Shown one piece after another: positions 28,966-43,347 of a stretch of 64,000 nt of DNA. Source of the stretch: Terriglobia bacterium (GTDB lineage: Bacteria > Acidobacteriota > Terriglobia > JAJPHL01); NCBI GenBank assembly GCA_021325275.1, contig JAJPHL010000036.1, positions 62,001 through 126,000 on the forward strand, read 5' to 3'. Positions within the stretch are counted from its first letter, which is position 1, and every line of letters starts with the position of its first letter. The notes below the pieces were generated by a model. That model was given only the letters and a program-made list of their open reading frames with translations, made no database searches and was not told where the DNA came from. A program made the position numbers and the translations under genes.

Positions 28966-31900
28966 TCATGTTTGCGCCGGCGCGATCGCGTGTCCCCAGC
29001 CGACTTGGCGGCCTTGCACGGCGCGAACCAGTGCGCGGAACAGCACCACGTACATCATTTGCCGGTAGTAGAAGCGCTGGATGAGCATCGGGAATAGCAG
29101 CGTGTAGTCTTCGTCGCGCTCCAAAAGGAACGCGATCACGCACGTACAGAAGTCGATCACCAAGAATCCGAGGAAAAACAGCACCGCGCGGCGCACGTCG
29201 TCGCCCGACCACAGTTGCGGAATTTGGCGGATGTGCAACTGACCCAATCCCCACAACGTGAGCGATCCCACGAAGAGCAAATCGATCAGCGGCGAGAAAA
29301 GCGGCAGCACAATCTGAAAGAGAAAGACGTTGGGCAGCGCGATCCAGCCGAGCGTGCCGTACTTGAAACGCGCCAGGGTGTCGCGATGTTTCCACACCGC
29401 TTGCATCGTGCCGAACGTCCATCGGAAACGCTGGCGGATCAATTCCCCGGGCGATTCCGGCGCTTGCGTCCAGGCGATCGCTTGATCGTCGTACAAGATT
29501 CGCCAGTGGCGGCGGCGGATCGCCAGTGTCAAGTCGGTGTCTTCGGCCACGGTCTCGCTGGTGAAACCGCCGCATTCGCGCATCGCGGAGGCGCGCCACG
29601 CGCCGATCGCGCCGGGAACTACGGTGATGCAATTCAGCAAATCGAACGCGCGTTTTTCCATGTTCTGGCTGCTGATGTATTCGAGGGCCTGCCAGCGTGT
29701 GATCCACAAATGGCGATTGCCCACTTTGGTGTTGCCGGCGACCGCGCCCACCGTGGGATCGGCGAAATTCCGCACCAGTTTCGAGATGGCGTCCGGCTCG
29801 ATTTCGGTGTCGGCATCGATGGTCACGACAATCTCACCGTCCGCGTGCGATAGCGCGCGATTCAGCGCCGCGGGCTTGCCGCCGTTGGACTGATGAATGA
29901 TCCGCACGCGCGGATTCGCGGCGAAACACTCGTCGAGCAATTCGGCGGTGCGGTCGCGCGATCCGTCGTTCACGACGATCACTTCGACGTCCGGATAATC
30001 CGAGCGCAGCGCGCTCTCGACGGTGCCCACCACCGACAACTCCTCGTTGTACGCCGGGATCAGCACGCTGACTTTCGGCCGATACTCCGGGTGCGCGCCG
30101 GGATCGGCGCGCAATTTCTCGATGATCGCGAGCACGCCGACCAGCAGCGCGCGCCCCGAGATCAGCGCGATCCCGGCCAGGAAAATCCAGGCGATTCCGA
30201 AACGCAGCCAGCGATACAGATCGAAGATCAGCCCGTCGGCACGCGCCGTCCAGCGCTCGGTGGCCGTGAGCGTGGGCATGGTTTGCGCGCGCGTTTGTCC
30301 GATCAATTCGGAAACGCCGGTCAAGTGGAATCCATGCGCGCGAAGGCCATCGATGATTCCCGGCAACGCCTCCACGGTGTTTTCGCGATTTCCGCCGCCG
30401 TCGTGCAGCAGCACAATGTGCCCGTCGACTCCCACGATGGCAGGTGGAATCGGCTTGCCCATCGCCTGATCGATCACGCGCTTCACGATGTCCTTGGGCG
30501 GAGGCGGCGCGCCGCCGCCGTGTTCGCCCCAATCGTGCGGATCGATTTTCGCGCCAACCAACAAATATCCGTACGATTGCGGAATCGGCAGCAGGCGCAC
30601 GTCGTTGTCCGATTCCGGCTGGTGATCGATGCCGTAGGGCGGACGGAAAAGCAGCGTCTTGATGCCGAGGCGGCTTTCAAACAATCGCTGCGTGAGCGTG
30701 ATTTCCCACTCGAGCTGGCTCAGCGGAATGTCGTTGAAACTCGGATGCGTGTAGGTGTGATTGCCGATTTCGTGGCCTTCGCGATAAATCCGCTGCAACA
30801 ATTCCGGCGACGCGTTGGCATTCACGCCGGTGATGAAAAACGTAGCCACCGCGGATTTCTCTTTCAAGATGTCGAGAATGCGCGGTGTGAAACGCGGATC
30901 GGGACCGTCGTCGAAGGTCAGCGCGATGTCTTTGTCGATCGCGCCGATCTGATCGATCTGATAGGGAAACGGCGATTGCAGATAGTTCTCGTCGGTAAAC
31001 AAATCGGTGGACGAATCGTAGCGGAACTCGCGTTTGCCATGCGTGGGTGTCGCGGTGATGCGCCACACGTCGCCTTCGCCTTCGATCGCCAAGTCGTAGC
31101 CGGGCGGCATGTCTTTGATTTTGTCGCGCGTCGAATCGTCGGGATGAAGATTGTCCCAAATCGACCAGATCGAGGGATCTTCCGATCCCAAGCGCCACAG
31201 CGCGGTGCCGCGAATCTGCTTCCTTTCGGCGGCGCGGATTTCGTTGTACGCCGTCACGCCGTCGAGCAGCCAAACTTCGTGGGTGATGTGGTGTTCGTCC
31301 TCGTACTCGTAGGCCGGATTCATGGCGTCTTCGTCGAAGTAAACGGAAGCCTCGGATTCCTTCGCCGTCACGAGAGCTTCTTGAAAACTCGTCGATTGCG
31401 ATTTCTCTTTCGCGCCGGGACCCTTCGTGCCTTTCGGAATCTTCGGCCAATCGTAGGAGTAGTTGGCGATACCCATTACCAATTTCTCCGGGGGCACTTC
31501 CTTGAGCGTGCTTTCGAGATTGCGCTGATACCACGCTTGGCTCGTGATCGGTCCGGGATCGGACGTCAGCCAGTGTTCGTCGTAGTTCATCAGGATGACG
31601 GCGTCGGCGACTTTGCCGAAATACGCGTAGTCGTAACTCGAGTCGGCCGCGGGCAGGCACACCATCACCTTGCGGTTGTAGACGTGCGCCGCAATGGTCA
31701 ACTCGGAGATGAATTTCTCGAAATCGTCTTGCGACTTCTCGGGGATCTCCTCGAAGTCCACCACGACGCCCGATTGTCCCGGCGGCGTGGACGCGGCGGG
31801 CGCGGAGGGATTCGCCGTCGACGGCGCTTCCGGCCGGCGGCGGCCTTCGGCGTCGACGTTGACGAAGCGAATCAACTCGGAAACCAAGCGCTTTCGAGCG

Positions 31901-32460
31901 TCGGGACTCTTGAGATACCGGACCATTTCCTCGGTGCGCCAATTCACGCCGTCGTAATTGTTCACCAGCGGCATGATGGGGATGGAAACGTCGAGCGTGT
32001 CGAGCCACGCTTTTAGTTTTTCGTCCGGTTCGATCACCATGTGGCCGTCGGGCGACACGGCGTGCAACTGTTCGGGGATCAGCAAGTCGAGCTCGCGATA
32101 ATGCTGCTGCAGCGACGAAAGACTGGTGTAATCCCACGGGACATAAAACGCCGCGCGCAACGGATCGTAATTCGCGGGAATCGTGCCGAGCGCTTCCACG
32201 CGGCTGCGGCGGCCGCGGCGCCGCGGAAGATTCTTGGCCTTCGGGCGATCCTTCGACGGATGCAGCTCGGGACGCGTGTCGGGCAGCAGCAACTGCGGAA
32301 GCGCGGGACGCTGCGCGATGCTGAGGAAGAAAACCACCACCAGCGCGGCCAGCACCAGCCCGAGAACTTCCAAGGCGCGACGGGTAAGCCACCAGCGGCG
32401 TTGACGCTCGTCGAAGAAAACGGGTTTGCCTGAGTTTGGCGTCACGAGTTTCGGCGTCAC
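28966..32460 (-). CDS. Trifunctional membrane protein: GH18-like - polysaccharide deacetylase - GT2 synthase
   Basis: 1164 residues. A membrane segment (about 29-48) leads to a GH18-like domain with VVVDFEEIPE near residue 235 (catalytic Glu) and VILMNYDEHW. A NodB deacetylase follows at about 500-690: IALTFDDGPDP, HTYTHPSF, RPPYG and IVLLHDGGGNR. After a membrane helix (about 750-775) comes a GT2 synthase: VSVLIPAYNEE near 800, VTIDADTE and RQRFRWTFG near 1008, then several membrane helices. The three activities are those of PgaB-like deacetylase/hydrolase plus PgaC-like polymerase, here in one chain. It probably makes and trims a poly-N-acetylglucosamine-like exopolysaccharide. The start GTG 32460 is tentative; GTG 32445 is in a direct repeat. 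Confidence 0.9.
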   Translation of the reverse strand: MTPKLVTPNSGKPVFFDERQRRWWLTRRALEVLGLVLAALVVVFFLSIAQRPALPQLLLPDTRPELHPSKDRPKAKNLPRRRGRRSRVEALGTIPANYDPLRAAFYVPWDYTSLSSLQQHYRELDLLIPEQLHAVSPDGHMVIEPDEKLKAWLDTLDVSIPIMPLVNNYDGVNWRTEEMVRYLKSPDARKRLVSELIRFVNVDAEGRRRPEAPSTANPSAPAASTPPGQSGVVVDFEEIPEKSQDDFEKFISELTIAAHVYNRKVMVCLPAADSSYDYAYFGKVADAVILMNYDEHWLTSDPGPITSQAWYQRNLESTLKEVPPEKLVMGIANYSYDWPKIPKGTKGPGAKEKSQSTSFQEALVTAKESEASVYFDEDAMNPAYEYEDEHHITHEVWLLDGVTAYNEIRAAERKQIRGTALWRLGSEDPSIWSIWDNLHPDDSTRDKIKDMPPGYDLAIEGEGDVWRITATPTHGKREFRYDSSTDLFTDENYLQSPFPYQIDQIGAIDKDIALTFDDGPDPRFTPRILDILKEKSAVATFFITGVNANASPELLQRIYREGHEIGNHTYTHPSFNDIPLSQLEWEITLTQRLFESRLGIKTLLFRPPYGIDHQPESDNDVRLLPIPQSYGYLLVGAKIDPHDWGEHGGGAPPPPKDIVKRVIDQAMGKPIPPAIVGVDGHIVLLHDGGGNRENTVEALPGIIDGLRAHGFHLTGVSELIGQTRAQTMPTLTATERWTARADGLIFDLYRWLRFGIAWIFLAGIALISGRALLVGVLAIIEKLRADPGAHPEYRPKVSVLIPAYNEELSVVGTVESALRSDYPDVEVIVVNDGSRDRTAELLDECFAANPRVRIIHQSNGGKPAALNRALSHADGEIVVTIDADTEIEPDAISKLVRNFADPTVGAVAGNTKVGNRHLWITRWQALEYISSQNMEKRAFDLLNCITVVPGAIGAWRASAMRECGGFTSETVAEDTDLTLAIRRRHWRILYDDQAIAWTQAPESPGELIRQRFRWTFGTMQAVWKHRDTLARFKYGTLGWIALPNVFLFQIVLPLFSPLIDLLFVGSLTLWGLGQLHIRQIPQLWSGDDVRRAVLFFLGFLVIDFCTCVIAFLLERDEDYTLLFPMLIQRFYYRQMMYVVLFRALVRAVQGRQVGWGHAIAPAQT

Positions 32461-34513: not shown

Positions 34514-35308
34514 CTACTTGTTCTTCCAAACCGGCTTGCGCTTCTCGGCGATGGCGCGCAGACCCTCTTGTGCGTCCTCCAAATCCATCAACTGATTCAA
34601 GTACAGATTCGCGCTGCGTTGGAACGCTTCGGCCAGCGGATAGCCCATCGAATCGAACATCACGCGCTTGGCCATTTCGAGCACGGCGCTGCTTTGATCG
34701 GTGATGCGCGCCAGAATCGCATCGACCTCTGCGGTAAGTTTGGCTTCCGGCACCAGGCGATTCACCAATCCCAAGCGATGCGCGTCGAGATGGCTGATCG
34801 GTTGCGCCAGCAGGATCATCTCCATGGCGCGCTTGGGACCTACCAGGTGCGGCAGCAGAATCGCGGCGATGGGCGGAAAGACACCGGCGCGGACTTCTGG
34901 TTGTGCAAACTGGGCCTTCTCCGTGGCTACCACCAAATCGCCGAACAGGGCTAGCTCGCAGCCTGCGCCCACGGCGGGTCCATTGATCACGGTGATCAAG
35001 GGCTTGGAGATTTCCAGCATCGACTTGAAGATTCCCTGGAACGCCTCCATCATTTGGAACGCGCGACCGGGTGCGGCATCGGCGGGCGCGACGCCGGCAC
35101 AGAAGAACGTCGACCCGGGCGCGGCTTCCATCACGATGGCCCGGACCTCGCGCGCCGCGTGCATGCTCTCGATGGCCTGCGAGATTTCGCGCATCGCCTT
35201 TACCGTGAGAAAGTTGTGAGGCGGCTTGTTTAACACCATGCGAGCCACCCGGCCGTTTACGGCGACCTGGATAGACTCGTACTCTAATGTGGTTGCGGGG
35301 GAACCCAT
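34514..35308 (-). CDS. Enoyl-CoA hydratase/isomerase family protein
   Basis: 264 residues from ATG 35308. The crotonase fold is clear: VNGRVARMVLNKPPHNFLT, AIVMEAAPGSTFFCAGV (first oxyanion strand), LITVINGPAVGAGCELALFG (second), the hydrophobic GVFPPIAAILLPHLVG, and LGLVNRLVPE. The family acts on enoyl-CoA thioesters with hydratase, isomerase or related chemistry; the catalytic acids are not decisive here. It is alone on its transcript and divergent from the export operon. Confidence 0.9.
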   Translation of the reverse strand: MGSPATTLEYESIQVAVNGRVARMVLNKPPHNFLTVKAMREISQAIESMHAAREVRAIVMEAAPGSTFFCAGVAPADAAPGRAFQMMEAFQGIFKSMLEISKPLITVINGPAVGAGCELALFGDLVVATEKAQFAQPEVRAGVFPPIAAILLPHLVGPKRAMEMILLAQPISHLDAHRLGLVNRLVPEAKLTAEVDAILARITDQSSAVLEMAKRVMFDSMGYPLAEAFQRSANLYLNQLMDLEDAQEGLRAIAEKRKPVWKNK

Positions 35309-35445
35309 GACCGCTGATTTCACCACAACTGAGGGGTCAAACACAATTCCCCATCGGGTCCAGTTTCAAACCATTTGACGATTTCCCCTAACGATTTTCC
35401 ATTCTCTGGCGTCTATACTCATTGAGTACCGGGGGAGTGGTGTCG

Positions 35446-36720
35446 ATGAGCTCGGTAAAAGCCTTGAAATGGATAGCGGCGGGATTGACGGTAGCGCTCG
35501 TCATTGTGGGGCTGGTGATATTCGAACACGGCAGCGGACGGTCGACCGTCGCGGCGGCCGGGGCGCTGTCCGGATCGACGCCGTACGTTCCGGTGACGCG
35601 CGGTCCCATGCTCCGCACGATTCGCGTGGGCGGAACACTGGCGGCCGTGCATTTCTCGGGCGTGTCCGCGCCGGCGCTGCGCGGCGCGCGCTTCCAACTG
35701 ACGATTGTGCGTGTGGCCCCCGCCGGAACGCATGTGCAGGCCGGCGACGTGGTCGCGGAGTTCGATCGCCAGCAGCAGAAGCAAAATTTCGACGATCACC
35801 AAGCCGCCTACAACGATCAGAACGACGCCATCCTGAAGCGCCAAGCCGAACTGAAGATCGAACGCGAGAAGCAACTGAGCGACCTGCAAAAAGCCAAGGC
35901 CGACGTGGAATCGCAGAAGCTTGAGAATCGCCGCAACGAAATTGTTTCGAAGATCGACGCCGAGAAAAACCAGGAGGCGTTGGCCGAAGCTGAAGCGACG
36001 CTCAAGATGCAGCAGGAAACGCTCGACTTGCGGCAGGCCTCGGCGGTCGCCGAAATCAAATTGCTGGAAATCAAGCGCGACCGCGAGAAGCTGGCCATGG
36101 ATCAAGCGCGCATCAACTACGATCGCCTGGTGGTGAAGTCGCAGGTGCCGGGCATGGTGGTGTATCAACCGTTTTGGAAGAGCAGCAAGATCGGCACGGT
36201 GCAGGAAGGCGATCAAGTGTGGCCGGGACTCGTCTTCATGCAGATTGTGGACACCACCGCGATGGCCATGCGCGCGCACGTGAATCAGCTGGACGCCAAG
36301 TACATTCAGGCAGGACGTTCCGCGGAAATCCACTTAGACGCGTATCCCGATGCGCGCTTGCAGGGCCGCGTGGAAAACCTGAGTCCGCTCGGGCAAAGCG
36401 GGAATTACGGCGACAAGATGCGGTCGTTCACCATGCGATTCAGCCTGCAAGGCAGCGATCCCCGCCTGATTCCCGATATTTCCGCCAGCGCCGACGTGGA
36501 GGTGTCGCGCGTGCCAGACGCGTTGCTGGTCCCTCGCGGCGCGGTGGCGCGTCTCGCCGGCGGCGACTACGTTTGGGTGCATAGCGAAAAGGGTCTCGAG
36601 CGGCGGCAAGTGACGCTCGGCGGATTCAACGACGTGAATTGGGCGATCACCGGCGGCGTGAAGGAAGGCGAAATGGTTTCCGTGATGGTTCCCGCGGACG
36701 CGCAGGAGAACAAGAAGTGA
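35446..36720 (+). CDS. Periplasmic adaptor (HlyD/MacA-like), first of three
   Basis: 424 residues from ATG 35446, with GGGGGAG at 35431-35437. An N-terminal membrane anchor (WIAAGLTVALVIVGLVIF) is followed by a lipoyl/barrel-sandwich half, a coiled-coil of about 120 residues rich in Q, K and E (for example EREKQLSDLQKAKADVESQK), the second lipoyl half and beta-barrel parts. It lacks an ATPase. Adaptors of this type bridge an inner-membrane transporter and an outer-membrane TolC. The next adaptor overlaps by 4 bp (GTGA). Confidence 0.9.
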   Translation: MSSVKALKWIAAGLTVALVIVGLVIFEHGSGRSTVAAAGALSGSTPYVPVTRGPMLRTIRVGGTLAAVHFSGVSAPALRGARFQLTIVRVAPAGTHVQAGDVVAEFDRQQQKQNFDDHQAAYNDQNDAILKRQAELKIEREKQLSDLQKAKADVESQKLENRRNEIVSKIDAEKNQEALAEAEATLKMQQETLDLRQASAVAEIKLLEIKRDREKLAMDQARINYDRLVVKSQVPGMVVYQPFWKSSKIGTVQEGDQVWPGLVFMQIVDTTAMAMRAHVNQLDAKYIQAGRSAEIHLDAYPDARLQGRVENLSPLGQSGNYGDKMRSFTMRFSLQGSDPRLIPDISASADVEVSRVPDALLVPRGAVARLAGGDYVWVHSEKGLERRQVTLGGFNDVNWAITGGVKEGEMVSVMVPADAQENKK

Positions 36721-37985
36721 AGCGTGCTCTCCTCGCGATCGTACTTATCGGAGCCGCCGGCGGAATCGCCGCTGCCGCGTATCGCTTCCGCGACCGTCTG
36801 CCGAAACTCACGACGAACGAAGACGCGCAGGTTCCCACCGCGTCCGTGCACAAAGGCGATCTCACCATCACGATGAAGCTGACCGGCGACATCAAGGCGA
36901 TGAAGAGCGTCACGTTATATGCCCCGTTTTCGGTGACCGACGTGAAACTGGTTTCGGTCACCAAGAGCGGCACCATGGTGAAGGCCGGCGACGTGGTGGC
37001 GGTGATCGACGCCACGCAGGAAAAAGATAAAGTCAAGGAACAAGATTCCAACGTCAAGCAGGCCGACAAAGAAACCGACAAGGTGAAGGCGCAGCAGCAT
37101 CAAGTCGACGAGCAATCGCGGCTCGATGAGGCGCAAGCGCGCTACGACGTGGAAGGCGCCAAGCTCGACACCAAGAAAGGCGAGATCGTCTCCGACATCG
37201 ACGCCGGCAAAGCTCGCTTGACGCTGGCCACCGATGAGCGTCATCTCCAGGAATTGCTCAACGACGACGACGCGCGCGAAGTGTCCAAGGCTTCCGACCT
37301 GAACACGGTGGGCCGCAAGCGCAAAAAAGCCGAGAACGATCGCAACCTGGCGCAGGCGAACATCGACTTGCTGACGATCAAAGCGCCCATGGACGGCATG
37401 GTGGTGATTCTGCCGAACTGGCGATCGCAAATGGGTTTTGGCCAGCCCGCGCCGTTCAAGGCCGGCGACGCCTCGTGGCCGGGCGCGTCGCTGGCGGAAA
37501 TCCCCGACCTGCACACGCTGGTCCTCGAGTTGACGATTGAAGAAACCGAACGCGGCAAAGTTTCCGCCGGAGAACCGGCGCGCGTGAAAGTGGACGCGAT
37601 TCCCGATCGCTCGTTCACCGGGAAAATCAGAGAGATCAGCACCACGGCACAGATGGTTTTCGACGGATGGCCGCCGAAAAAACTTTTCAAAGCGCTGGTG
37701 GACATCGCGCCCGACGATAATCGCTTGCGTCCGAACATGAGCGCCAGCGCCGACATCGAAACGGAGACGCTCTCGGGCGTGGTCCTGGTTCCTTCGCGCG
37801 CCGTGTTCGAACGCAACGGCCGCGTGATCGCGTGGGTGCGCACGGGCGGACGCTTTGAAATGCGCAAAATCGAAGTGGGCAAGAAGGGCGACGGTCAAAC
37901 GCAGGTGCTGAGCGGTCTGCAGCCCGGCGACGTGGTCGCGCTGGAAGAGCCGCCGAAGGCCGCCGCGGCGCTGGGAGGCGTGTAG
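36717..37985 (+). CDS. Periplasmic adaptor (HlyD/MacA-like), second of three
   Basis: 422 residues from GTG 36717, overlapping the previous stop by 4 bp. A membrane anchor (LLAIVLIGAAGGIAAAAYRF) leads to a lipoyl domain (VKLVSVTKSGTMVKAGDVVA), a charged coiled-coil (about 105-210), and beta-barrel segments (LVLELTIEETERGKVSAGEP). It is related to the first and third adaptors but not close in sequence. It stands 3 bp before the third one. The three probably assemble with the single permease and TolC as one hetero-oligomeric tube, or work at different complexes. Confidence 0.9.
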   Translation: MKRALLAIVLIGAAGGIAAAAYRFRDRLPKLTTNEDAQVPTASVHKGDLTITMKLTGDIKAMKSVTLYAPFSVTDVKLVSVTKSGTMVKAGDVVAVIDATQEKDKVKEQDSNVKQADKETDKVKAQQHQVDEQSRLDEAQARYDVEGAKLDTKKGEIVSDIDAGKARLTLATDERHLQELLNDDDAREVSKASDLNTVGRKRKKAENDRNLAQANIDLLTIKAPMDGMVVILPNWRSQMGFGQPAPFKAGDASWPGASLAEIPDLHTLVLELTIEETERGKVSAGEPARVKVDAIPDRSFTGKIREISTTAQMVFDGWPPKKLFKALVDIAPDDNRLRPNMSASADIETETLSGVVLVPSRAVFERNGRVIAWVRTGGRFEMRKIEVGKKGDGQTQVLSGLQPGDVVALEEPPKAAAALGGV

Positions 37986-37988
37986 ATC

Positions 37989-39299
37989 ATGAAAGCAGCA
38001 GTCAAATGGATTCTGGGATTGCTGATCGTCGGCGCGGTCCTGGCCGGCGCGAGCGTGGAAGCAACACGCTATTTCGCGCCGCCGAAAATCGAGGTCGCCA
38101 CGATCCTCTCGCGCAACGGCGAGTTCGTGATCGAAACGCACACCCGCGGCACGCTGCGCGCCGTGAATTCCGCCATGATGGTGGCGCCCAACGTCGGCGG
38201 CACGCTGATGATCACCGAACTGGCGCACTCCGGCGAATCCGTGAAAAAGGGCGACGTGGCGATGAGTTTCGATCGCGAGGATATGCAGAACAACGTCGAC
38301 GCCGCGAAGTCGCGCGTGGAGGAAGCCGAACAGACCATCCGCAAAGCGAACGCCGACGCCGCCATCAAACGCCATGAAGATCAAGTGGACCTGATGAAGG
38401 CGCAGTTCGCGGTGCGCCGCGCCGAGTTGGACGTGAGCAAGAACGAGACCGTATCGGCCATCGACGCGCAGAAAAATATTTTGACGCTGGAAGCCGCCAA
38501 GAAGAAGCTTTCGCAATTGCAGGAAGACATCTCGGCGCGCAAAACCTCCGACGCCGCCGATCTCGCCGTCAACGAAGAAAAGCTCAACAAAGCGAAATTC
38601 GATCAGACCCAAGCCGAAACGCGTCTGCACCAGTTGGACGTAAAAGCGCCGATGGACGGATTGCTGAGCCTGCGCACGAATCGCATGGCCGCCGGCGGCA
38701 TGTGGTATCCCGACTTGCCGGACTTCGGCATCGGCGATCAGGTCAACGGAGGAAATCCGGTGATCGACGTGGTCGACAACACCAATCTGGAGATGTCGGC
38801 GCAGATCACCGAAACCGATCGCGGCAATTTGAAGGAAGGCCAGCCGGTGACCATTCATCTCGACGCGCTGCCGGATATCGTGATCGAGGGCAAAGTGAAA
38901 TCGCTGGGCGGAATCAACGCGCGCGATTGGGACGCTTCGCCGAACAAAACGTTCGAGGGCGTTTTCGAATTGACGCCGGGACCGAACGGCAACGATCCGC
39001 GTTTGCGCCCGGGGCTGAGCGGCGAGGTGGTGGTGACAACCGAGAAAGCCCCGAACGTCGTTTTTCTTCCGCAGCAGGCGGTCATCGAAAAAGAAGGCCG
39101 CAAATGGGTTTACCTGGCTCAAGGCGGAAGCAACTTCCAGCGCGTGGAAGTGCAAACCGGACGCCGCAGCGAAAGCCAAGTGGAAATCACCAAGGGTTTG
39201 AATGGCGGCGAGCGCGTGGCGCTGGCCGATCCGGAAGAACGCTCTGCCGCGGCGAAGAAGAAAGCGAATCCGCTGGCATCGTCGCCGGGAGGCAAATAG
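37989..39299 (+). CDS. Periplasmic adaptor (HlyD/MacA-like), third of three
   Basis: 436 residues. An anchor (WILGLLIVGAVLAGASVEA) is followed by the lipoyl half, a coiled-coil with EEAEQTIRKANADAAIKRHE and related heptads (about 95-200), and a late beta-barrel region (LEMSAQITETDRGNLKEGQP). Ends with a short charged tail. The family role is as a link between inner-membrane exporter and TolC. Only 7 bp separate it from the permease gene, so it belongs to the same operon. Confidence 0.9.
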   Translation: MKAAVKWILGLLIVGAVLAGASVEATRYFAPPKIEVATILSRNGEFVIETHTRGTLRAVNSAMMVAPNVGGTLMITELAHSGESVKKGDVAMSFDREDMQNNVDAAKSRVEEAEQTIRKANADAAIKRHEDQVDLMKAQFAVRRAELDVSKNETVSAIDAQKNILTLEAAKKKLSQLQEDISARKTSDAADLAVNEEKLNKAKFDQTQAETRLHQLDVKAPMDGLLSLRTNRMAAGGMWYPDLPDFGIGDQVNGGNPVIDVVDNTNLEMSAQITETDRGNLKEGQPVTIHLDALPDIVIEGKVKSLGGINARDWDASPNKTFEGVFELTPGPNGNDPRLRPGLSGEVVVTTEKAPNVVFLPQQAVIEKEGRKWVYLAQGGSNFQRVEVQTGRRSESQVEITKGLNGGERVALADPEERSAAAKKKANPLASSPGGK

Positions 39300-39306
39300 G
39301 CGCCGC

Positions 39307-40575
39307 ATGGTCACTCCCTTCAAACGAACGCTGATGCTGTTGCCGGAAGTGCGCATGAGCGTGGGCAACTTGGCGGCGCACAAATTGCGCACGCTCTTGA
39401 CCATGCTCGGCATGATCTTCGGCGTCGGCGCGGTGATCTCCATGCTGTCGATCGGCGCGGGCGCGCGGCAGGAAGCGTTGAGCTTCATCGAAACGCTCGG
39501 CGTGAACAATGTGATCGTAGAGGCGAAGGAAGCCAGCGGCTGGCCGGAATTGCAGGAACGCCGCAAAATCTCCGCGGGACTCACTTTTCGCGACGTCCGC
39601 GCGCTGGCCGGTAATCTGCCCCAAGTGGAGTTGGTTTCGCCGCGCAAGCGCTACAAGCCGGCCAAAATCTTTCCCAGCGCCGCCAAAGACTTGCCGACGG
39701 TGGTCGGCGTGATGCCGGAATTTCCCGCCATCGCCGGACTGAAGGTGATCGCCGGAAGATTCTTCGACAAGAGCGAACAAGCCGAAGGCGCGGCGGTGGC
39801 CGTGGTGGGAGACGGCGCGCGCCGCGCGATTTTCGGCAGCGGCGATGCGGTCGGCGAGTTCGTGAAGGTCGACGACGCGTGGTTCCGCGTGATCGGCGTG
39901 CTGGCCTCGCAAGCGGGCTATCAAACGGAACTTGAAGGCGTGCAAGTGGAAGATCGCAACATGTTCATCTATGTGCCGCTGAACGCGGCGATGCTGCGCC
40001 TGGCCAACACGCAAAGCGATTACAAAGACGAAATCGACGGCATTTACCTGAAACTCATCGACTCGCGGCAGTCGGTGGACACCGCGCAAGCGACGCGCGC
40101 GATTTTGGACGCGCGACATCGAGGCGCGGGCGATTTTTCGGTGATCGTGCCGGCGGGATTGCTCGAGGAACAGCGCCGCACGCAAAATATTTTCAATTTC
40201 GTGATGGTCGCCATCGCCGGAATCTCGCTGCTGGTCGGCGGCATCGGCATCATGAACATCATGCTGGCGACGGTACTGGAGCGCACGCGCGAAATCGGTA
40301 TCCGCCGGGCCATCGGCGCCCGCCGCGCCGACATCGTGCGGCAATTTCTACTCGAAGCCACCATGATTTCCATCGCCGGCGGATTGCTGGGTATCGCCTT
40401 CGGCTTCACCATGTCGCGATTGATCGCGCTGACCGCCGGATGGTCGACGATCGTCAGCCCGGCGTCGATTGCGCTGGCCTTCAGCGTGTCGGTTTCCGTT
40501 GGTTTGGTTTTTGGTTTGTACCCCGCGCGTCAGGCCGCGCAGCTCGACCCGATCGAGGCGATCCGCTACGAATGA
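39307..40575 (+). CDS. MacB/FtsX-like ABC transporter permease (no ATPase domain)
   Basis: 422 residues. One helix at about 30-55 (LTMLGMIFGVGAVISMLSIG), a large periplasmic domain of about 220 residues, and three C-terminal helices (about 285-410), with GIGIMNIMLATVLERTREIG, the conserved MacB/FtsX cytoplasmic loop, and a final GLVFGLYPARQAAQLDPIEA. MacB proteins carry an N-terminal ATPase or have a separate LolD-type one; neither is in this operon. TolC starts in the same TGA/ATG (ATGA). The ATPase must come from another locus or the complex uses a different driver. Confidence 0.92.
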   Translation: MVTPFKRTLMLLPEVRMSVGNLAAHKLRTLLTMLGMIFGVGAVISMLSIGAGARQEALSFIETLGVNNVIVEAKEASGWPELQERRKISAGLTFRDVRALAGNLPQVELVSPRKRYKPAKIFPSAAKDLPTVVGVMPEFPAIAGLKVIAGRFFDKSEQAEGAAVAVVGDGARRAIFGSGDAVGEFVKVDDAWFRVIGVLASQAGYQTELEGVQVEDRNMFIYVPLNAAMLRLANTQSDYKDEIDGIYLKLIDSRQSVDTAQATRAILDARHRGAGDFSVIVPAGLLEEQRRTQNIFNFVMVAIAGISLLVGGIGIMNIMLATVLERTREIGIRRAIGARRADIVRQFLLEATMISIAGGLLGIAFGFTMSRLIALTAGWSTIVSPASIALAFSVSVSVGLVFGLYPARQAAQLDPIEAIRYE

Positions 40576-42266
40576 AAATCTTCCGCTCCCTCTCGCTTTT
40601 TTCCCTCATGGCGTTGCCTTGCCTGCGTGCACAGACCGCACCGCAGACCGCACCGCAGACCGCGCCACAGATCGCACCACAGATCGCACCAGGAGACACG
40701 TCGCGGGAGAGTACGCCCTTCTTTCCGACGCGCGAATACTTTCACACGATGTTCCAGCCGCGACAGCAGTACAAGCTGGAGTTGCCCGGCACGTTGCGCG
40801 ATCGCGTGCGCGACGGCAAGCTGCGCTTGTCGCTGGCTGACGTGACCCAGCTCGCGGTGTCGCGCAATACCGACGTGTGGCTCGCCCGTCTCGACGTGCA
40901 ACAGGCCGTCACGCCCGTGATGCGGTCGTGGACGGTGTTTGATCCGCAATTCTCGGGGACTTTCTCGAGTTCGTTTTCTTCGTCGCCCGTGGCTTCAGCG
41001 CTGTCGTCGAGCAAATCGCTTTTCCAACAAACGTCGGTGGGAATCTCGCAAGTGCTGCCGACCGGCACCGTCTACAACGTCGGCTTCACCGGCACAAAGG
41101 CGTCGAACAACAACGGCTTCGACTTGCTGAATCCGTCGTTGACCGCGTCGCTGAATTTTTCGATCGTGCAACCGCTCTTTCGCGGACGCGGCGTCTACTT
41201 GAATCGCGCGCCGATTCTGATTGCGCGAATGAATCGCCAAATTGCCCGCGACCGCTTCGAGCAATTGCTGATCGGCTCGCTGCAATCGGTGCAAAACCAA
41301 TACTGGGATACGGTGAATGCGCGCGAGTCGCTGGCGGTGGCGCGCAATTCGCTGCAACTGGCCGAAGCGTTCTACCAGCATGACAAGCGGTCGCTCGAGT
41401 TGGGCGCGCTGCCGCCGCTCGACATTTTCCGCTCGGAAGCGGACGTGGCGAATCGCAAAGTCGCGGTGACGAGCGCGGAATATTTTTTGAAACAGCAAGA
41501 AGACGCCCTGCGCCGCTTGATCGCCGCGGATCTCGATCCCGATGTGCGCGGACTTCCGCTGGAGTTGACAGAGTCGCCCTCGGGCACGGAAGTTACTTTT
41601 CCCGCGCCGGAAGAAGCCGTGGCGCTTTCATTCCGCAAGCGCCCGGAGTTAAATCAGCTTCATCGTCAATACGCAATTCAGCAGACTTCCGAACGCGTGG
41701 CGTTGAACGAATTGAAACCCAACATGGCGGTGGGCGCCAACTACAGTTCCAACGGCTTGGGCGGCGACAATTTCATCTCGGGCGTGCTGGTTCCCGGCGG
41801 CTTCAACGATGCATTGCGTCAGGCGTTCGGCTTCGGCAGTCCGACCTACGGCTTCTCGGTGACGTTGGGCTTGCCTCTGCGCAATCGTTCCGCCGCCGCC
41901 GACGTGGTGGACGCCGAGATCAACCTGAAGCGCACCATTTATTCGCAGCGCAGCACGGAACAGCAGATCGCGCTCGACGTGCGCACGTCGCTGAACCAGC
42001 TGGAACAAAGCCGGCTGAACATTGTCGGCGCGATCCAGGCGCGCGATCTTGCCAAGAAGACACTCGACGCCGAGCAGCGCAAGTACGAACTGGGCAGCGG
42101 CCAAGTGAATTTCGTGTTGGACGCGCAACAGCGGCTCACCGACGCCGAGAACCAACTCCTGCAAGCGACGATCAGCTATCGCAAGGCGGTAATTTCCGTG
42201 CAGCGCGCCACCGGCACGCTTCTCGACGACAATCACGTGGTACTCGATCAAGCCATCGGCGGTTGA
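40572..42266 (+). CDS. TolC-like outer-membrane efflux protein
   Basis: 564 residues. A signal peptide (MKIFRSLSLFSLMALPCLRA) is followed by an imperfect TAPQ/IAPQ repeat (about 22-40), then the TolC repeat architecture. LADVTQLAVSRNTDVWLA and LNYS-type strands start the first half; ETVNARESLAVARNSLQLAE and RRSLELGALP-like helices follow; and the late GSGQVNFVLDAQQRLTDAENQLL is typical of TolC helices. It forms the outer channel for the adaptor-permease complex in the same operon. The start overlaps the permease stop. Confidence 0.88.
   Translation: MKIFRSLSLFSLMALPCLRAQTAPQTAPQTAPQIAPQIAPGDTSRESTPFFPTREYFHTMFQPRQQYKLELPGTLRDRVRDGKLRLSLADVTQLAVSRNTDVWLARLDVQQAVTPVMRSWTVFDPQFSGTFSSSFSSSPVASALSSSKSLFQQTSVGISQVLPTGTVYNVGFTGTKASNNNGFDLLNPSLTASLNFSIVQPLFRGRGVYLNRAPILIARMNRQIARDRFEQLLIGSLQSVQNQYWDTVNARESLAVARNSLQLAEAFYQHDKRSLELGALPPLDIFRSEADVANRKVAVTSAEYFLKQQEDALRRLIAADLDPDVRGLPLELTESPSGTEVTFPAPEEAVALSFRKRPELNQLHRQYAIQQTSERVALNELKPNMAVGANYSSNGLGGDNFISGVLVPGGFNDALRQAFGFGSPTYGFSVTLGLPLRNRSAAADVVDAEINLKRTIYSQRSTEQQIALDVRTSLNQLEQSRLNIVGAIQARDLAKKTLDAEQRKYELGSGQVNFVLDAQQRLTDAENQLLQATISYRKAVISVQRATGTLLDDNHVVLDQAIGG
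40636..40692 (+). repeat. Short tandem repeat in the TolC leader (12-bp units)
   Basis: Four to five 12-bp units of the CCGCACCGCAGA type, some changed to CCACAGATCGCA, encode TAPQ and IAPQ. The units follow the signal peptide cleavage region. Unit number can vary by slippage without breaking the frame. Confidence 0.75.
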
Positions 42267-42312: not shown

Positions 42313-43347
42313 ATGAAAATACGCGCTGCCCTCCTGGCGATCTTGGCGTGTGCCTCACTAGCCGCCGCCCGCGACTGGACAAAATATCCCGCCATCGTCG
42401 AGATCGATACCACCGCCGACGTTTACGCGGTCGGCGATCCGCACTCCGACTGGGAGCGGCTCGCCGGCGTGCTGGCGACCGCCAAAGTGATCGAGTCGAA
42501 GCCCGCGGAGCCGAATCAAGTGCAGTGGAGGGCCGGAAAATCAGTGCTCGTGATCACCGGCGATCTCATCGACAAAGGACCTCCGGGGTCGGGCGCTGCG
42601 GGGTTGGGCGTGATTACATTCCTGAGCGCGCTGCGCACCTCGGCGAGCGCGGCGGGCGGATTGGTGATCGTGACGATGGGCAATCATGAAGCGGAATTTC
42701 TCGCCGATCCCACGGCCGGCAAAACGAAAGAGTTTCAGAAGGAACTGAAGACCAACAAGATGGAACCCGCGCGCGTGGCGGCGTGCGACGGAGCCGTCGG
42801 CGAGTTTCTATGCAACCTGCCCATCGGCGCGCGCGTGAACGATTATTTCTTCTCGCACGGCGGCAACAGCGGCGGACAAACGGTCGCCGGGCTCAATGCA
42901 TCGATCGCGGACGACGTGAACAAGTCGGGCTTCCGCGCGAAGGCGTTGATCGATCCCAACTCGATCCTCGAGGCGCGCTTGAACGACGGTGGACCCGCGG
43001 GATTGCCGTGGATTTACGACGGCAACAAGAAGACCGACGCGCAAGCGCTGCTCGCGGACTACGCCGCGAAGCTCGGTGTGCATCACATCGTGCAGGGACA
43101 TCAGCCCGGCAACGTCAAGTTTCTCGACGGACCGAAGCGCGACGCCGGCACGATTTTCCAGCGCTGGGGATTGCTCTTCCTGATGGACACCGGAATGTCG
43201 CGCGGGATTGAAGGATCGAACAGTATCGGCGGCGCGCTGCACATCACGCCGAAGGGTGTGGAAGTGATTTGCGCGGGCGGCACGCGCTCCATGCTCTGGG
43301 ACGCCGGCGCAAACACGCCGGTAGCCGCGATGTACTGTGGAAAATAA
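42313..43347 (+). CDS. Secreted metallophosphoesterase (Shewanella-like phosphatase type)
   Basis: 344 residues with a signal peptide (MKIRAALLAILACASLAAA). Calcineurin-type motifs are GDPHSDWERL, ITGDLIDKGPPG, TMGNHEAEFL, HHIVQGHQPGNV and a late MDTGMSRGI, which are the metal-binding blocks of protein phosphatase-like enzymes of the Shelph type. The first motif has GDPHS in place of GDxHG. It probably dephosphorylates a periplasmic phosphoester or phosphoprotein. It stands alone after the export operon, with a 46-bp gap. Confidence 0.87.
   Translation: MKIRAALLAILACASLAAARDWTKYPAIVEIDTTADVYAVGDPHSDWERLAGVLATAKVIESKPAEPNQVQWRAGKSVLVITGDLIDKGPPGSGAAGLGVITFLSALRTSASAAGGLVIVTMGNHEAEFLADPTAGKTKEFQKELKTNKMEPARVAACDGAVGEFLCNLPIGARVNDYFFSHGGNSGGQTVAGLNASIADDVNKSGFRAKALIDPNSILEARLNDGGPAGLPWIYDGNKKTDAQALLADYAAKLGVHHIVQGHQPGNVKFLDGPKRDAGTIFQRWGLLFLMDTGMSRGIEGSNSIGGALHITPKGVEVICAGGTRSMLWDAGANTPVAAMYCGK

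Follow-up and report, generated by a model that had tools for sequence, protein, structure and literature searches.

The window, by which we mean the whole 64 kb stretch of DNA that was analysed, carries at positions 35446-42266 five tightly coupled genes, all on the forward strand. The first three encode periplasmic adaptors, A1 (35446-36720, 424 aa), A2 (36717-37985, 422 aa, GTG start) and A3 (37989-39299, 436 aa), each with Pfam matches to HlyD_D23/HlyD_3. They are followed by a MacB-type permease without ATPase domain (39307-40575, 422 aa, MacB_PCD and FtsX), and by a TolC-type outer membrane channel (40572-42266, 564 aa; OEP, E 4e-35), which scores 71 bits, under the cut-off, against the type_I_sec_TolC model. 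The coordinates of the open reading frames give joins of −4, +3, +7 and −4 bp, i.e. a 4-bp overlap between A1 and A2, a 3-bp gap between A2 and A3, a 7-bp gap between A3 and the permease, and a 4-bp overlap between the permease and the TolC-type gene. Both the tight coupling and the composition, three different adaptors with one permease and one channel, are thus as stated in the original prediction. The operon is flanked on the 5′ side by an enoyl-CoA hydratase gene on the opposite strand (34514-35344), and on the 3′ side by a metallophosphoesterase gene (42313-43347). Elsewhere in the window, a minus-strand gene (28966-32460) encodes a 1164-aa protein made of a glycosyl hydrolase 18 domain, a polysaccharide deacetylase and a family 2 glycosyltransferase.

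The operon had also been described as lacking an ATP-binding protein. This was confirmed, and the absence extends to the entire 64 kb, as a six-frame profile scan of the window found no LolD/MacB-type ATPase even at E 0.1. The host genome (6.86 Mb in 75 contigs) is 97.6% complete, and its relatives place it in the Acidobacteriota.

Conservation and age of the three adaptors

A search with A1 in 60 relatives showed that several families of the class share the order A1-A2-A3-permease-(TolC). With the permease as query across the phylum, the order adaptor-adaptor-adaptor-permease was found in about 90 of 396 sampled Acidobacteriota genomes. The loci fall into clade I, with 32 members including the window (some 50-72% identity to the window permease; Candidatus Solibacter, Bryobacterales and Paludibaculum are among the named relatives), and its sister clade II, with 84 members (44-50% identity). 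The comparison genomes are drafts, and three adaptors are present in nearly all loci with enough upstream sequence. A TolC-type gene belongs to the operon in only part of clade I, many loci having none, and flanking genes vary among the loci examined.

Outside the phylum, the order ATPase-adaptor-adaptor-adaptor-permease was found in Shewanella, Pseudoalteromonas, Psychrobium and Aminicenantes, ATPase-adaptor-adaptor-permease in Latescibacterota, and adaptor-adaptor-adaptor-permease-ATPase in Proteiniphilum. Most Bacteroidota have a single adaptor and a permease. Most of the Bacteroidota loci collected here (L280-L308) consist of one adaptor and a MacB-type permease with no adjacent LolD-like ATPase within the up to 7 kb covered on each side, and the ATPase may be shared there too. 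The comparison with relatives proposed along with the original prediction thus recovered the same gene order in both clades and in the named genomes, so that the operon is not a chance assembly. The set adaptor-adaptor-adaptor-permease is an old, conserved module.

All three adaptors begin with a hydrophobic, anchor-like segment. A1 comprises an N-terminal membrane anchor, membrane-proximal, barrel and lipoyl domains, and a 126-residue hairpin segment. In its AlphaFold2 model (pLDDT 84) two 59-residue helices span residues 109-167 and 169-227, and the closest PDB structures are those of MacA (9qgy/5nik). MacA entries (9qgy, 4dk0, 5nik) are also the PDB sequence matches of A3. Within the window the adaptors share 28-30% pairwise identity (A2 versus A1, 28.5%; A2 versus A3, 29.9%). 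In a 130-row tree, the clade I orthologues of A1, A2 and A3 form one clade each, with 100, 99 and 99% support respectively, and nearly all intact loci keep all three genes. Given this low identity and these separate, well-supported clades, A1-A3 are not recent copies of one another, and the recent duplication that would have undermined the original prediction is ruled out.

These data also bear on whether the locus is an ordinary MacAB-TolC operon that underwent a recent tandem duplication of its adaptor gene and lost its ATPase by chance. Every part does come from a known family, but the three adaptors represent old lineages, each conserved separately, and the ATPase-less order is common to all 32 clade I loci, which makes such an origin most improbable. 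In a quick tree the adaptors of clade I and clade II lie apart. AU tests did not reject clades by position (p 0.51 for position 1, 0.12 for position 2), and for this reason we do not claim that the adaptor triplications are convergent.

Some relatives have adaptors of 600-720 aa, and these were considered as possible ATPase fusions. This was ruled out: none contains a fused ATPase, and the surplus length is glycine-rich, low-complexity sequence. The inserts, of 100-250 residues, are lacking in the window copies; they lie near the lipoyl domain in A1 and near the membrane-proximal domain in A2 or A3 (examples at L066:7760-9799, L066:11128-12942, L068:9600-11516, L077:5643-7796 and L061:6659-8647).

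The permease and its missing ATPase

The permease matches MacB_PCD (E 5e-36) and FtsX (E 2e-20) in Pfam. It starts directly with the membrane part, and its best NCBIfam match, MacB, begins only at model position 259, leaving the ATPase domain of the model uncovered. The MacB-type fold, with four transmembrane segments, MacB_PCD and FtsX, is present, and the AlphaFold2 model aligns with MacB (5gko) with a Foldseek E value of 5.6e-25 and a TM score of 0.79. With 36.7 bits against the curated LolC/LolE model (cut-off 362.45), the protein is not of the LolCDE type. It shares the MacB/FtsX type with the acidobacterial duplicated orphan permeases (ADOP, TIGR03434) but scores 127.7 bits against that model (cut-off 622.3), and its 422 aa are unduplicated, whereas ADOPs are duplicated proteins of about 800 aa.

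In MacB, two coupling helices, CH1 and CH2, have been described (PMC8277102), and the permease model places both alike, CH1 at about residues 327-335 between TM2 and TM3, and CH2 as a short C-terminal helix at about residues 415-420. Mean conservation of the coupling region (residues 322-350) is 0.81 in clade I and 0.78 in clade II for loci with no ATPase beside the operon, compared to 0.83 and 0.80 in the groups with an adjacent one. The motif ERTREIGxRRAxGARRxDIxRQFLxEA and the C-terminal DPxEAxRYE are equally kept in both situations. The ATPase-coupling helix of MacAB-TolC-type permeases is therefore conserved in this protein. Together, the conserved coupling region and the presence of CH1 and CH2 in the model argue against ATP-free function, and the permease still looks driven by an ATPase.

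Where this ATPase might be encoded was examined by profile scans. In clade I, all 32 loci are without an ATPase gene inside the operon or immediately next to it. One of them, L073, does carry an ATPase of a different class 3.7 kb downstream, beyond a further adaptor gene (the two genes lie in L073:1148-3390, minus strand). Of the 84 clade II loci, 11 have an ATPase gene next to the operon; in six it follows the permease and in five it precedes A1. More may exist, as some contigs end too close to the operon. An ATPase gene directly outside the five-gene order in relatives had been named as an observation that would count against the original prediction. Such genes do occur in this minority of clade II and in proteobacterial loci, but in no clade I locus. 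They suggest that the module is ATP-driven and do not render its lack of an ATPase gene in clade I trivial.

Alternatively, the permease may need no ATPase at all, for instance if it gives the adaptors a passive or signalling platform, or if it draws on another energy source. The lack of an ATPase gene inside and immediately next to the operon at 32 clade I loci would fit, but the coupling-helix and C-terminal motifs are kept as in the copies with an adjacent ATPase, and relatives of the same architecture have the ATPase within the operon. We regard this alternative as improbable.

A profile built from the in-operon ATPases was next used to search 50 genomes, and 49 of them gave exactly one match of at least 355 bits. 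This match is the in-operon gene in the genomes that have the ATPase in cis, and a gene elsewhere in the others. The exception among the former is G377, where an apparently in-operon ATPase gene, broken by Ns, is accompanied by a second copy. In G282 and G306 there is a second ATPase whose score differs from that of the in-operon one by no more than 13 and 50 bits, respectively. The contexts of the separate copies were read from 1.5 kb on each side and from contig coordinates. Among the matches listed, no related permease lies nearby in 27 of 30 genomes; one was found within a few kb in the remaining three (G001, G061 and G122). In G177, a complete genome, the related permeases listed are megabases away from the ATPase. 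Most of the flanks read contain unrelated genes (GDSL lipase, DnaJ, QueC, PLP decarboxylase) or a lone MacA-like adaptor. In G398, a MacB/FtsX-type permease gene adjoins the ATPase gene on the opposite strand.

In the ATPase tree, most separate copies, including that of the host on contig C66, belong to one clade with 98% support, which also includes the in-operon ATPases of G106 and G372. Given the position of these two, the same ATPase gene would stand apart in most genomes and inside the operon in two. The other in-operon ATPases group with the proteobacterial ones next to this clade. Genomes lacking the three-adaptor operon (family f10, e.g. G246) carry the ATPase too, and it is therefore not specific to the operon. 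The suggestion that the ATPase is shared from another locus thus finds support in the genome comparison: there is about one such ATPase per genome, mostly without an adjoining permease, and it is part of the operon in two relatives.

In the host genome, the proposed search for a LolD/MacB-type ATPase gave 12 LolD-like matches above 180 bits. The best candidate is C66 (contig C66:214414-215091), which outscores the other host ATPases against each of the 11 in-operon ATPases, in two cases by a few bits only. In the host, as in its nearest relative G001, the ATPase is encoded together with its own permeases. The gene order around C66 is macA-ATPase-permease-permease, and its product would consequently be shared between systems. 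The pairing in trans of the operon permease with the C66 ATPase is proposed from these comparisons and would fit them. It may also be that one or several other LolD-like ATPases, rather than C66 specifically, serve the operon. With a dozen candidates in the genome, and with the C55 ATPase as the second closest to the in-operon ones (53-63% identity), this possibility has some support; we nevertheless hold it to be rather unlikely, in view of the first rank of C66 against all 11 in-operon ATPases and of its place in the clade holding two of them. The ABC-GAF protein of contig C25 was also considered as an orphan ATPase and ruled out, being far from the in-operon ATPases. Its gene (L093:4692-6026, minus strand) encodes a protein in which an ABC ATPase is joined to a GAF domain, and no permease of this family lies directly beside it.

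A proposed mixed adaptor ring and shared motor

All three window adaptors have a hairpin of 126 residues between the two lipoyl halves, a length shared by nearly all clade I loci; in clade II it is 127 residues. The three hairpins of a locus differ by no more than 2 residues in 108 of 110 cases. The hairpin of MacA from the same genome has 138 residues. Single-adaptor relatives from Bacteroidota also have hairpins of 126 residues, so that equal length is a necessary feature of a mixed ring and not a specific one. It is partly a family trait, and natural fusions of A1 with A2 provide a stronger sign. Such fusions, of about 780 aa, were found in about 12 acidobacterial loci of several families (among them L142, L155, L164, L167, L170, L175, L179, L200, L201 and L224) and in two proteobacterial loci (L299 and L329, Pseudomonadota). 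In the sequences inspected, the second adaptor follows without a new membrane anchor. Being naturally fused, A1 and A2 would be adjacent in the ring and present in equal number; the same argument has been made for adaptors that occur as fused dimers (PMC4446572). If three adaptors share a tube of six members, the simplest assembly would be (A1-A2-A3)x2. Equal hairpins and A1-A2 fusions thus suggest one mixed ring. A TolC-docking motif common to the three adaptor tips was also sought, but the tips are only partly alike across clades and this argument was dropped.

At one of the fused loci, L155 in G106, a 789-aa frame without Pfam match (L155:11892-14261, minus strand) lies between the fused A1-A2 gene and A3; G372 has a frame of similar size.

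The adaptors might instead assemble as three homo-hexamers, each on its own, which take turns on the one permease or compete for it and link it to different substrates or outer-membrane partners. Their strong divergence, with 28-30% identity, would suit such an arrangement, and so would the many loci without a TolC gene in the operon, where different partners are possible. It accounts less well for hairpins of equal length within each operon, for the A1-A2 fusions, and for the co-retention of all three adaptors in nearly all intact loci, and we consider it rather unlikely. The hetero-hexamer is indirectly supported by the same three observations, the co-retained paralogues being ancient. The original prediction had offered an ATPase acting in trans and a hetero-hexamer of adaptors as alternatives. 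Both ideas gained support, but they are not alternatives, since the two can hold together.

The reading that we favour, with some reserve, is that of an exporter resembling MacAB-TolC, with a mixed ring of three adaptors, powered in trans by an ATPase such as C66. Two permease subunits would form the inner-membrane part, and A1, A2 and A3 would build a single mixed tube. Its simplest form would be the hexamer (A1-A2-A3)x2, which has the two-fold symmetry of the permease dimer. The hairpin tips of this tube would contact TolC. A separately encoded MacB/LolD-type ATPase would dock from the cytoplasm on the coupling helix of the permease and supply the power. Export, as the direction of transport, is presumed.

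In its working the operon would resemble MacAB-TolC, the type VII ABC tripartite exporter (5gko, 5lil, 5nik), to which it is similar in permease fold and topology, in adaptors nearest to MacA, in the TolC-type channel and in the placement of CH1 and CH2. In MacAB-TolC, however, the ATPase is fused to the permease in MacB and there is one adaptor gene, whereas here an ATPase domain or nearby ATPase gene is lacking and three distinct adaptor genes are present. As these two defining features, a fused or adjacent ATPase and a single adaptor, are absent, we did not file the operon as a plain member of that system. Spr0693-0695 of Streptococcus pneumoniae has its ATPase in the same gene cluster and one membrane fusion protein, in a Gram-positive host without outer-membrane channel. 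As in our operon, its MacB-type permease chain is separate from the ATPase (5xu1). More than one distinct adaptor per pump is known from TriABC-OpmH of Pseudomonas aeruginosa, where TriA and TriB, 36% identical, are thought to form a 3:(3+3):3 mixed ring (PMC13328181 and PMC4446572). That pump has two adaptors, not three, and an RND transporter instead of a MacB/FtsX-type permease. For a shared motor, experiments have shown that an MsmK-type ATPase energises several ATPase-less ABC transporters (PMC4519317). Those are sugar importers of Gram-positive bacteria, whereas the systems considered here are exporters, for which a shared ATPase would fit the gene distribution. Searches of open-licence literature gave nothing relevant on a three-adaptor ABC exporter or on orphan MacB permeases in Acidobacteria, and a term search of a 2026 review (PMC13328181) returned no named three-adaptor pump.

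The host genome encodes 67 ADOP permeases above the curated cut-off, far more than its approximately 12 LolD-like ATPases; other genomes of the phylum have 2-48 ADOPs. It also has eight single MacB-type permeases, of which those at C42:27318, C8:42018, C13:72099 and C13:73356 (L082, L085, L084) are without adjacent ATPase. A broader proposal, which we put forward as possible rather than probable, is that Acidobacteriota use an exchangeable motor, a single-copy ATPase encoded apart that powers many ATPase-less permeases, combined in the present case with an obligate (A1-A2-A3)x2 ring matching the permease dimer. Its clients would be the three-adaptor exporter, other single permeases and perhaps the 67 ADOPs of the host.

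If true, a motor shared between exporters would account for the dozens of acidobacterial MacB-like permeases without adjacent ATPase genes. A three-adaptor ABC exporter would likewise offer a natural case in which to read the order and number of subunits around an adaptor ring, and would inform the question of how a three-fold TolC is matched, through a six-membered adaptor tube, to a two-fold transporter. Both proposals, the three-adaptor ring and the shared motor, are now attached to named genes.
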